Shown here piece after piece: positions 10,439 to 51,494 of a stretch of 64,000 nucleotides of DNA. Under the pieces are notes generated by a model that saw nothing but the letters and a program-made list of their open reading frames with translations, was not told the origin of the DNA and did no database searches. Position 1 is the stretch's first letter. Each line of letters opens with the position of its first letter. The stretch is from Desulfolutivibrio sulfoxidireducens. Lineage in GTDB: Bacteria > Desulfobacterota > Desulfovibrionia > Desulfovibrionales > Desulfovibrionaceae. Made by a program: the position numbers and the translations under genes. The DNA is taken from positions 3,074,001 to 3,138,000 of the forward strand of contig NZ_CP045508.1 of NCBI RefSeq assembly GCF_013376475.1, in the 5' to 3' direction.

Positions 10439-11341
10439 TCAAGATATAAACTCTTCAATTTTACTAGCAAAAATTCCATTGACACTTCGCAAACACGGAA
10501 TGCCCAAAAGAATTGGATACGCGATAAGCGCTTCAGGACTATACAGGAAATTTTCTATTTTAATTAATGGACATTTAAATTTTGGACAGGCCCATGCTTC
10601 ACCTTCTATCTCGTCAGATTCACAGTCTTTTTGTATGATGGTAATAGCTGTGGGGTTCAAGGGATTTATTCCAGATGAAAACAATTCATGTGTAATCACC
10701 GAATAGCCAAGAGACAAAGAAATTTCCTTTAATTTTCTGCAATACCTAAAATGTTCCATTCGTCGCTTTCCATCTTCACTCGCAAACTCATAACCGGGCT
10801 CTAATAGGATCAAGAATTTTCTTGCCACCCGATAGAGCTCTCTAAGTATCGGCTCTTCATTACCATGATTAGGCTCTATAGAATGCGATGTATATACGAC
10901 ATCAATCGAATCATTTTTAAAAGGGATATCCAGCAAATCGCCAGTACAAATTTTAGCTTTGGCAACACCCTTTTGTTTCAGAAATCGACTCGCATATGCA
11001 GCCCTAGACCAGCTCAAATCAAAACCATAACAATCTATATCAGAAGCTAAAGACTCTGCAACATACGCTAATGTGGTAGCTTCACCCACACCAGCTTCGA
11101 GAAGAGAGCTAGGCCTGCATAGTCCTAGAATTGTTTTCGAAATTTTTGCTGCATACGACATTTTCCAATCGAGTATCTTTTTATCATTTAACGAATCAAT
11201 ATATGTACCACTCTGAAAATCATAGCTATATTCAATAATATCCGATTCACTAATTCCACCAAAAGCATTATTGCGCAAATAATCCATGACATTAATGCCT
11301 TCCGTTTTATACATATCATGGAGTCGCTTAGGACTAATCAT
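10439..11341 (-). CDS. SAM-dependent methyltransferase with Trm112-like C-terminal tail
   Basis: The 300-residue protein has a class I methyltransferase core: LLEAGVGEATTLAYVAE as motif I near residue 83, CYGFDLS as motif II, and TGDLLDIPFKNDSIDVVYT as motifs III-IV. The last 50 residues (ACPKFKCPLIK followed by YSPEALIAYPILLGIPCL) resemble the zinc-ribbon-like Trm112 fold, which activates methyltransferases, here attached to the enzyme. The substrate is unknown. The ATG at 11341 follows AGGAG. The gene is far richer in A and T than its neighbours and lies against an IS3 remnant, so recent horizontal transfer is likely. Confidence 0.7.
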   Translation of the reverse strand: MISPKRLHDMYKTEGINVMDYLRNNAFGGISESDIIEYSYDFQSGTYIDSLNDKKILDWKMSYAAKISKTILGLCRPSSLLEAGVGEATTLAYVAESLASDIDCYGFDLSWSRAAYASRFLKQKGVAKAKICTGDLLDIPFKNDSIDVVYTSHSIEPNHGNEEPILRELYRVARKFLILLEPGYEFASEDGKRRMEHFRYCRKLKEISLSLGYSVITHELFSSGINPLNPTAITIIQKDCESDEIEGEAWACPKFKCPLIKIENFLYSPEALIAYPILLGIPCLRSVNGIFASKIEEFIS

Positions 11342-11459
11342 CACAATCTCCTCTTTCATTATTTCGAAAGTCAAGGGTTAAAAACAGTACGGATGCAACG
11401 ACACATACCAAAAAGCTGCTTGACTTCAAACATCTTATCTTTATAGCCAAAAGACGTTT

Positions 11460-48264: not shown

Positions 48265-48274
48265 CCGCCGCGCG

Positions 48275-49035
48275 ACCCGCCCCGACAGGGGACGCCGCCG
48301 GGGCCAGGGGCGCGGCAACGTCCTGCGGCAAGAGCAGGGCCTGCCCCTTCTTGCTGGTCCTCTCCGGCACCTCTTGGATCAGCCGGACAGCTCCTCTTGG
48401 CGGATGCAACCCGTGTAGACGATCTTGCCGGGCCTGGGAGAATGGGCGTGCCCTTCCCGCCTGGCCAGGTTGATCAGGACCTCGGGCTTTTCCCGACGCA
48501 GGTTGTGGCGGGTGATGAAGCTGTCCCCGGCCCCCCGCCGCGCCGCCATCAGCGCCACGTCATCGAAGGCCGCATCGTCCACCCAGAGCGGATGGGCCTT
48601 GGTCAGCTTGCGCACCCGCACGCGGACCACGGCATGAAAGTCCAAGGCCCCTTCATGCAGGGGATGGTGATTCCCTGGACAAAGCTTGGCCCCTACGACC
48701 AGACCGCCTTCGAGGAACGAGCAGACCGGGGCGTGGCCGAGAACCCCGGTGTAGCCCTTGGCGACGCCCTCCTTCTTGGTGTCGCTGTTGTCGAGGATGG
48801 TGGAGTTGGTGTCGATCCGCACGCCGACACAGTGAGGCGTCGAACCCCACCTTGCCTATGGCGATGAGTCCGCCAAGGCACCGCGGGATGTCCTTCTCAG
48901 CGACCTGACAGTTCGGGACTCCCGTTTGGCGCAGAGGGAATCAACGCCACCGATGCGCTTGAGTTCGCCCATCGCCGCAAGCCCGGCATTGCCGATGATC
49001 GGCTCTTCGGTGATCTCAAGGGCCAATTTTCCCAT
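48275..49035 (-). pseudogene. Broken IS1380-like transposase (first fragment)
   Basis: Read on the minus strand from ATG 49035, the N-terminus (EPIIGNAGLAAMGELKRIGG) breaks off by frameshift near 48860. It then continues in another frame with IDTNSTILDNSDTKKEGVAK and HAPVCSFLEGG, and after a stop near 48379 again with EVPERTSKKGQALLLPQD. These blocks are in the order expected for IS1380-type DDE transposases. At least two frame changes and the missing C-terminal half make it inactive. It ends against phoU. Confidence 0.65.
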
Positions 49036-49348
49036 GTGGCGCACCTCGCGGGTGAAAAAACATTCCCTCAACCCAACGAGGTCAATACACCAAAATGATT
49101 CATTATTTTCAAATGCAAATTGCATCTTGACAGCAAGTGGAATTGATGCTGGTTGCGGATTCAGGGAATTCTGGCGGAATTGAACGATTTTTCAGCATGA
49201 CACTGCCCCAGCAGTGAATTGCCGTTTTCTTGTTCAGACCGTTGCAAGGCGTTGGTGCGGGTTTCTACGCGTCTTTCCGAAATCTCCGTTGGACACCGCC
49301 TTTTTACTGAAAATTGAACAGATGTTTCTTGCAGATTCATAACAAGCA
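49036..49348. other. 313-base AT-richer gap
   Basis: No gene or clear signal is found between the transposase fragment and the radical SAM gene. The lower GC fits imported DNA. Confidence 0.4.
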
Positions 49349-50860
49349 TCATTTTGAACACGTCACATCGCTTCTAAGAAAATCCGCTGTCACGATTTGA
49401 CAATGATGAACCATGGCTGCCAAATGCAGCATTTCAGGGAGTTCGGCTAGACGTTTGAATAATATGTGAAAAAATAAACTCCAAAAAGCCAAGCGACCTT
49501 TCGTGCTAATTCCAAGTGTCCAAAGCAAAAGGAACATGGCCTTGACATCATACATTTTCACAGGTCTTTTTGCCACAAAATCAGGAGTCTTATAGTTCTT
49601 CAGACATTTTTTGATGCGCCCAAAGGATGCTGTCGGCGTATAGATTTCTCGCAAGAGGTCTTTGTATCCCTTAACCAGGAAGTCCTTATCCAGTTTTGGA
49701 ATGAAGTTCAGGGCATTTTCGTCCATGGTGTTGTTGCCTGAGGGCAAGCCAAGAATCCGGCCCTCTTTTTCGAGACGTTTCCACAGCGGCGTGTGGGGCG
49801 GGGCCGAGAGCAACCCGATCATGGCCACGGCTATGCCGGCATTCTCAATAAACTGCCGTTGGAGGTTGAAAATTTCGGGTGGATCCGCATCGAAACCGAT
49901 GATGAAGCCGCCCATGACACTGATGCCAAAGGAATGGATCGTCTCCACGGATCGGAGTAAGTCGCGTCCCATATTTTGTTTCTTGGAACATTCGGCCAGG
50001 GAGGCGGCCGCCGGAGTCTCAATGCCGATGAAGACGCTCTTGAATTGGGCCTTCGCCATCAAACCGAGCAGTTCCGCGTCGTCGGCCAGGTTGATGCTTG
50101 CCTGTGTGATGAACGTGAAAGGCTGCCCATGCTTCTGTTGCCAAGCGATGATGCCGTGCAGGAATTTTTTTGCCAGATTTTTGTTGCCGATGAAGTTGTC
50201 ATCGACAAAAAAAACCATGCCTCCCCAGCCAAGAGACAAGATATTGTCCAGTTCGGCAAGGATTTGTTCCAGGGATTTGTGGCGGGGCTTCAGACCGTTG
50301 AGGAACAACACATCACAAAATTCGCACTGGAAGGGGCACCCTCGTGTGCTCTGTATGGGCATGGCTAGGTACGCTTTGATGTCGAGAAGATCCAACCGGG
50401 GGGGCGGTGTCTCTGTCAAGCGAGGAAAACCGTCCGCCTTGTACACCGGCTTGGCGCAGCCGTTTTGCAGATCGGCCACAAGCCGGGGCATGACTGCCTC
50501 GGCTTCGCCCACCACGATATGATCAACCCCCTGGACCGTTTCATGATACAGCGTATAATGTGGCCCCCCGGCCACGACAGGCACTCCGGCGGCATTTGCC
50601 CGGCGCACAACCGTCGCAGCCGATTGCATCTGAATATCCATGGCGCTTACGAACACAGCATCAGCCCAGGCGAGGTGCTCTTCCTGCAACGGTTCCACGC
50701 TCATATCGACAAGTCGCTGTGGCCAAACCTGGGGGAGCATCGCTGCCACGGTGAGCAGACCAAGAGGAGGAACATTCGATGGCGCATGGAAAAATCGTCC
50801 TGCATGCTGCATGCTCCAGAATGTCGGCGGATAAGCTGGCGAAACGAGCAGGATATTCAT
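49349..50860 (-). CDS. B12-binding-domain radical SAM protein with DUF4070-type C-terminus
   Basis: The 503-residue protein has an N-terminal cobalamin-binding-like Rossmann domain (about 1-140; VAGGPHYTLY, HIVVGEAEAVMP) and a radical SAM domain with the [4Fe-4S] motif STRGCPFQCEFCDVLF near residue 175. The C-terminal region after about residue 370 resembles DUF4070, shared by hopanoid methylase-type enzymes. Such enzymes methylate or rearrange unactivated carbons, often lipids, under anaerobic conditions. The substrate is unknown. The cobalamin-binding DxHxxG is not clear. Lower GC and flanking transposase fragments suggest transfer. Confidence 0.82.
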   Translation of the reverse strand: MNILLVSPAYPPTFWSMQHAGRFFHAPSNVPPLGLLTVAAMLPQVWPQRLVDMSVEPLQEEHLAWADAVFVSAMDIQMQSAATVVRRANAAGVPVVAGGPHYTLYHETVQGVDHIVVGEAEAVMPRLVADLQNGCAKPVYKADGFPRLTETPPPRLDLLDIKAYLAMPIQSTRGCPFQCEFCDVLFLNGLKPRHKSLEQILAELDNILSLGWGGMVFFVDDNFIGNKNLAKKFLHGIIAWQQKHGQPFTFITQASINLADDAELLGLMAKAQFKSVFIGIETPAAASLAECSKKQNMGRDLLRSVETIHSFGISVMGGFIIGFDADPPEIFNLQRQFIENAGIAVAMIGLLSAPPHTPLWKRLEKEGRILGLPSGNNTMDENALNFIPKLDKDFLVKGYKDLLREIYTPTASFGRIKKCLKNYKTPDFVAKRPVKMYDVKAMFLLLWTLGISTKGRLAFWSLFFHILFKRLAELPEMLHLAAMVHHCQIVTADFLRSDVTCSK

Positions 50861-50929
50861 GCGCTACGGTTATCCTCCCTTGCGCGTTGACCTTCGCGGC
50901 AATCCCACTGCGCTACGCATACCCCGCTT

Positions 50930-50941
50930 GGTATGCATACC
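50930..50941. promoter_or_regulatory. Palindrome GGTATGCATACC upstream of the radical SAM gene
   Basis: A perfect 12-base palindrome lies about 70 bases upstream of the radical SAM ATG, with a related half-site GCATACC at 50917-50923. It could be an operator or part of a mobile-element end. Confidence 0.3.
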
Positions 50942-50945
50942 TTTT

Positions 50946-51107
50946 TCAGGGGGACTGCGAGACTGAAAACCGATCCGGATGATTTGCCGATTCCCGATGA
51001 GTACGGATGCCGTCAATGCCGCTGATGCGCAGAAGTTCTCCCACAGTCAACAACCCGCCATTGCGGATGATTGGCTCCTTCATCATATACAGGGCAGGCG
51101 TGCTCAT
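50946..51107 (-). pseudogene. N-terminal fragment of a second IS1380-like transposase
   Basis: From ATG 51107 on the minus strand about 53 residues read MSTPALYMMKEPIIRNGGLL and then VGELLRISGIDGI. These match the N-terminus of the fragment at 48275-49035 (EPII.N.GL...GEL.RI.G.D). It ends at 50946 without any catalytic part. Both fragments point the same way and flank the radical SAM gene. Confidence 0.6.
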
Positions 51108-51494
51108 GTCCAGCACCTCGTTGGTGAACTGGGCTATCGCCACCCCATGAAAGATCAATATGCCGGAATTCTAAACTTATTTCAATGATCAGATGCACCG
51201 TTACTGCGGCTTGAGCTGATATTTCTTACGGATTCAGGTTCATAACCACATTCCGGGAAAAGCGGCGGCGTGTTTGGTGGAGGCTTCCTCGCGGAGCCTG
51301 CCGGTGCTTTCAGCCCAGCGTGTGGTCACCCGCGAAATTCGCCCATGCCAGGACAAATCCTCAAGCCTTGCCCCGCAACGCGGGCAACGGCGCCGTTGCC
51401 CGCTTCCGGATCGGCCGCGTGACTCCCGAGATACCGGAGAGTTACCGTTGTCTCACCTTGCGCTTCCTTCCCGGGAGACCGCGATGAACCTCTT
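51108..51494. other. 387-base intergenic region with a 24-base perfect palindrome
   Basis: No gene is supported. A perfect palindrome with arms at 51380-51391 and 51392-51403 lies about 90 bases beyond the mltG stop; it lacks a T-run. The rest shows nothing recognisable. Confidence 0.4.

Follow-up and report, generated by a model that had tools for sequence, protein, structure and literature searches.

Decayed IS1380-family remnants around an intact HpnP-like radical SAM gene in the phoU-mltG spacer of Desulfolutivibrio sulfoxidireducens

The closest described parallel to the locus reported here is ISEcp1 (ISEc9), single copies of which carry resistance genes located downstream of, and co-oriented with, the element, and whose promoter drives the passenger gene. 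In a composite transposon, the arrangement that an earlier sequence-only reading had proposed for this locus, two closely similar IS arms enclose the passenger gene. Two published reports provide the remaining background: target duplications of 4-5 bp are reported for the IS1380 family (PMC12116815), and the HpnP-like group is defined by the combination of B12-binding, radical SAM and DUF4070 domains and consists of uncharacterised proteins (PMC10697835). No literature on IS1380 in Desulfovibrio was found among publications judged by their titles and the opening of their abstracts.

The window, that is, the whole stretch of 64,000 nucleotides that was analysed from the genome of D. sulfoxidireducens, a bacterium of sulfate-reducing type, harbors between the old housekeeping genes phoU and mltG a decayed insertion, a real import scar backed by an empty site in a genome of the same genus. 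The insertion resembles ISEcp1 in that a single IS1380 5' end forms its outer edge, exact when compared with the empty site, with a passenger located downstream and co-oriented, and possibly in an IS promoter reading into that passenger. It differs from ISEcp1 in that the gene is metabolic and not a resistance gene, the element is decayed and the far end is only a candidate, and it differs from a composite transposon by lacking two closely similar IS arms. Membership in the IS1380 family is reflected in transposase homology (NF033539 / PF13701) and in the CCTGAATCCGTA terminal repeats, but both copies in the window are dead fragments, unlike their intact relatives elsewhere.

Two IS1380 remnants flanking an intact gene

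The left piece, IS_L (48323-49165, minus strand), was delimited by tblastn, by blastn against the element of one genome of the same genus (G002) and by alignment. Its portion 48379-48822 matches the NCBIfam IS1380 profile with an E-value of 4e-12, under the full-length cut-off, and blastn puts its DNA at 82-88% identity to the intact G002 element, or at 80-88% when the element on the Solidesulfovibrio carbinolicus plasmid pDCAR1 is counted as well. The copy is disrupted by an internal deletion and by a frameshift and has lost its 3' part together with the 3' end, whereas its 5' terminal repeat (49154-49165, minus strand), which ends at 49165, matches the 12-bp element end at 11 of 12 positions. 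The right piece, IS_R (50979-51238, minus strand), is a more diverged remnant that consists of the 5' end and about 52-56 codons, everything beyond, including the 3' end, having been deleted. Its segment 50979-51146 matches residues 20-75 of the G002 transposase (48% identity, E 3e-7), a DNA match of 68% extends over 223 columns (E 1e-11), and its 5' terminal repeat (51227-51238, minus strand), the end of which lies at 51238, reproduces the element end at all 12 positions. The IS_R protein is 44-53% identical to full-coverage relatives from Desulfovibrionales and roughly equidistant from them, IS_L being one of these relatives (50%); matches were obtained in 5 of the 348 genomes of the order, the window's own included.

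Both 5' ends face right, and the radical SAM gene (49349-50860, minus strand), which encodes an intact protein of 503 aa, lies between them in the same direction. The presence of same-family transposase pieces on both flanks and on the minus strand, as the sequence-only reading had claimed, is borne out by the profile, protein and DNA matches and by the terminal repeats found in both pieces; likewise, the lower GC content that it had noticed between the pieces amounts to 0.43-0.59 versus approximately 0.59-0.72 around them. Two of its details require correction. Both pieces had been taken for N-terminal, and while this holds for IS_R, IS_L covers, in pieces, residues 1-98, 146-310 and 315-338 of the 472-aa G002 transposase in tblastn. 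In addition, the feature had been drawn from 48275 to 51107, although position 48275 belongs to the 3' flank of phoU (48265-48316, plus strand) and IS_L begins only at about 48323.

Intact relatives of approximately 1.65 kb are present in three genomes (G002, G027 and G166), and the transposase of the G002 copy is intact and scores 248.8 bits to NF033539 (cut-off 180). Complete relatives measure 1,652-1,663 bp, start with CCTGAATCCGTA or a close variant and end with its inverted copy. Perfect target duplications of 6 bp, in contrast to the 4-5 bp given for the family in PMC12116815, border 4 of the 7 complete copies, the exceptions being those in G002 and on the plasmid and one of those in G151. 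The pieces in the window have lost their left flanks and both 3' ends, and only the 5' terminal repeats remain to be compared. No intact IS1380 copy was detected in the window's own 4.16-Mb genome, in which the family search matched only IS_L. In G166, two same-direction IS1380 copies, separated by an unrelated transposase gene, lie 2.3 kb apart (L170 2796-8377), and each is bordered by a 6-bp target duplication of its own, CTACTT and GACTAC, and therefore they represent separate insertions. Same-direction neighbours of this IS1380 element thus do arise by separate insertions.

The phoU-mltG spacer in the genus

Comparison of the phoU-mltG junctions showed that the insertion is absent from both same-genus genomes, G001 and G002, and accordingly the radical SAM gene is not conserved at this place. 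In G002, phoU and mltG are still neighbours with none of the window insert between them, and phoU is followed by a hairpin with a T run and then by a spacer with 70% identity (E 3e-14) to positions 51239-51420 of the window, which we regard as the ancestral spacer. Homology with G002 resumes at 51239, the base directly after the IS_R terminal repeat; G002 therefore displays the uninserted site, and on its right the insertion stops exactly at an IS end. On the left side, homology with G002 stops at about 48298, persists weakly by eye to about 48316 and is then cut, and the hairpin of the phoU terminator is missing from the window, from which we infer that a deletion took both the left end of the insert and the phoU terminator. 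No terminator-like site was found on the plus strand between phoU and 50917. Two decayed IS1380 pieces at a site that is empty in G002 uphold the earlier proposal of an eroded IS scar.

This gap has received other DNA as well. In G001 a different radical-SAM/TPR ORF directly follows phoU (L047:1287-2924) and matches the profile W_rSAM_matur below its cut-off. Further right in the same gap, G002 holds other small ORFs over about 1.5 kb (L046, minus strand, ~4150-2640), one of which appears MarR-like by eye. The phoU-mltG gap is a hotspot that collects foreign DNA.

Origin and likely role of the radical SAM gene

A foreign origin of the radical SAM gene is well supported by its composition, its absence from relatives, its position in a tree and its low identity to all matches, and the earlier suggestion that the gene was brought in gains support accordingly. 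Its GC3 is 0.61, compared with 0.85-0.90 in phoU, mltG and serB, and neither G001 nor G002 has the gene here. A tree of 109 homologues (114 rows were extracted, of which three incomplete copies of the window gene and two duplicates were left out) puts the protein on a long branch of its own beside, and not inside, the Desulfovibrionales clade, a placement to be read with the caution that long branches demand. Among 395 genomes of the phylum the closest match is 50% identical, and 6 of the 395 contain a match at E 1e-150 or better; the best identity among the 80 loci listed is 49%, or 51% over partial matches, and the best plasmid match reaches 40%. No donor closer than about 50% was thus encountered in the 395 phylum genomes, the plasmids or the loci listed. 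Elsewhere in the window, an ORF for a class I SAM methyltransferase (10439-11374, minus strand) displays a GC3 of 0.30, far under that of its neighbours, and is likely to be another foreign gene.

The protein contains the B12-binding, radical SAM and DUF4070 domains (Pfam) that define the HpnP-like group and is at best about 50% identical to members in other bacteria. It retains 76 of the 77 positions at which at least 97% of 107 homologues agree (one further distant row of the tree having been dropped), including the CxxxCxxC cluster site at 175-182, and its predicted fold (mean pLDDT 88) is closest to AprD4, a diol dehydratase, followed by MgmA, TsrM, CysS and OxsB, a set made up mostly of radical SAM enzymes of the cobalamin type. 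Squalene-hopene cyclase was detected in none of the three genomes of the genus (the window's own, G001 and G002); the same search applied to 14 controls gave matches in Bacillus subtilis and Methanosarcina acetivorans, none of them over the cut-off. Since the hopene cyclase is missing from these searches, a role in 2-methylhopanoid synthesis is unlikely, and the protein is not expected to be HpnP, the hopanoid C-2 methylase, in function. The earlier idea of a lipid-methylating enzyme is not sustained by these searches, and HpnP-like proteins are uncharacterised according to PMC10697835. Judging from the conserved positions, the modelled fold and the lack of a detected cyclase, the gene probably encodes a functional radical SAM enzyme that depends on cobalamin and is likely to methylate carbon in a substrate other than a hopanoid.

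Expression of the gene may depend on the adjacent remnant. In the scanned stretch, the only promoter-like site on the minus strand upstream of the gene, TTGAAA-17-CATATT (51185-51157), lies inside IS_R, points at the radical SAM gene and recurs at the corresponding position of the element in IS_L and in the G002 and G166 copies; as bare matches, promoter-like sites occur at chance level (3 found versus 2.1 expected). The old transposase promoter may now serve the radical SAM gene.

Both G001 and G002 possess an HpnP-like gene at another location, in a block of 13.6 kb that is 95% alike between the two genomes, and in the window genome the G002 region finds domain-level matches but no DNA counterpart; this genome keeps a second paralogue, with 43% identity. 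These sequence comparisons would allow the imported gene to stand in for the HpnP-like gene that is native to G001 and G002. In G002 the HpnP-like gene is found directly behind a gene encoding a GH94, cyclic glucan synthase-like protein of 1995 residues (L050:6396-13983; matching L051). This neighbour was considered as a clue to function and discarded, the linkage being confined to G001 and G002 among 111 loci of the family, and no conserved gene partner emerged from those 111 loci.

Possible routes of entry

The reading that leads, with a likelihood that we place slightly below even, is that the older element, IS_R, brought the gene in the manner of ISEcp1, that the younger IS_L is a separate insertion, and that deletions followed. 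An old IS1380 element would have inserted just downstream of the phoU terminator, an event of which the edge is visible and the mechanism would be transposition, and most likely, by analogy with ISEcp1, it carried along the radical SAM gene, which is downstream of and co-oriented with its transposase. A different and younger IS1380 element, as the divergence between the pieces suggests, would then have inserted on the other side, and deletions, the end result of which is seen and the order of which is conjectural, would have removed both 3' ends together with the phoU terminator and the unit's left end, leaving the radical SAM gene intact. Since the 3' part of IS_R is gone, the capture event is not visible in the sequence, and one-ended capture leads as a presumed mechanism. 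As a candidate far end, the octamer TTCATAAC occurs at 49336-49343 (plus strand) and at 51239-51246, bracketing the radical SAM gene together with IS_R, and may tentatively be regarded as the target duplication of a unit holding both. The 6 bases to the right of IS_R, TTCATA, recur at 49336, and simulations give a chance of 0.28 for such a 6-mer and of 0.01 for the 8-mer; no terminal repeat lies beside the copy at 49336, the adjoining bases matching it at 3 of 14 positions. With the hexamer near chance and so few repeat bases kept, a search of the locus yielded no convincing far end for the one-ended unit.

The composite transposon favoured by the sequence-only reading, in which two direct-orientation IS1380 arms carried the gene as one unit and then eroded, accounts for pieces of the same family, in the same direction, on both sides of the gene and with a shared terminal repeat, and a 7-row tree of the IS pieces, although not resolved, does not reject sister arms (AU test, p 0.43). 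Nevertheless, we judge it distinctly unlikely. Over 258 shared columns IS_L and IS_R are only 60% identical, while IS_L is 82% and IS_R 64% identical to the G002 element. If the two were sisters with G002 as outgroup, IS_R would have accumulated 68 changes of its own against 22 in IS_L, about three times as many (p 1e-6), and because arms dying in one place should decay alike, this unequal change argues against sister arms; with the distant outgroup G151 the difference is weak (25 versus 41, p 0.049). As the tree does not separate the two readings, the argument is carried by the identity matrix and the relative-rate count. Moreover, a search for intact copies of the transposon, which the earlier reading had suggested, returned none in 348 genomes of the order: positions 49166-51010 matched 3 of the 348, namely the window's own genome and two with 64-68% matches inside the radical SAM gene. 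Likewise, no IS1380 relative was found around members of the radical SAM family in 111 loci (1.05 Mb), in which the flanks extend at most 1.5 to 10 kb and are often shorter. The gene may otherwise have come by a route of its own, through recombination or a lost element, with both IS1380 pieces as bystanders in an insertion-prone spacer, a possibility that we consider unlikely but a serious contender: the same gap is occupied in G001 by another radical-SAM/TPR ORF and in G002 by other ORFs over about 1.5 kb, and neighbouring independent copies of the element exist in G166, but this route takes more events, the insertion stops on the right precisely at an IS end, and the gene is 3' of that IS and co-oriented with it. 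An ancestral gene lost from G001 and G002 is hardly credible even though the comparison covers just two same-genus genomes besides the window's own, since the junction seen in G002 falls at the end of IS_R, the GC3 is foreign and the protein falls outside the Desulfovibrionales clade.

Taken to its full extent, one-ended capture would mean that, in a strict anaerobe, a metabolic radical SAM gene was picked up by an IS1380 element, that the element then died, that its 5' end was kept by selection as a promoter and that the enzyme replaces the native HpnP-like one, a chain that as a whole we hold to be quite improbable. The scar itself is built of known parts and represents an ordinary kind of gene import, readable where an empty site proves the position, with an IS end as its edge, dead elements and an intact cargo, and the survival of the cargo beside dead elements suggests that it has been useful. 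That cargo is one of a group of enzymes that is widespread, uncharacterised and related to the enzyme of the 2-methylhopanoid biomarker, and its own substrate is probably non-hopanoid, since no hopene cyclase was found in the genome. The locus is relevant to the question of whether ordinary metabolic genes, and not resistance genes alone, are moved by IS1380 elements.
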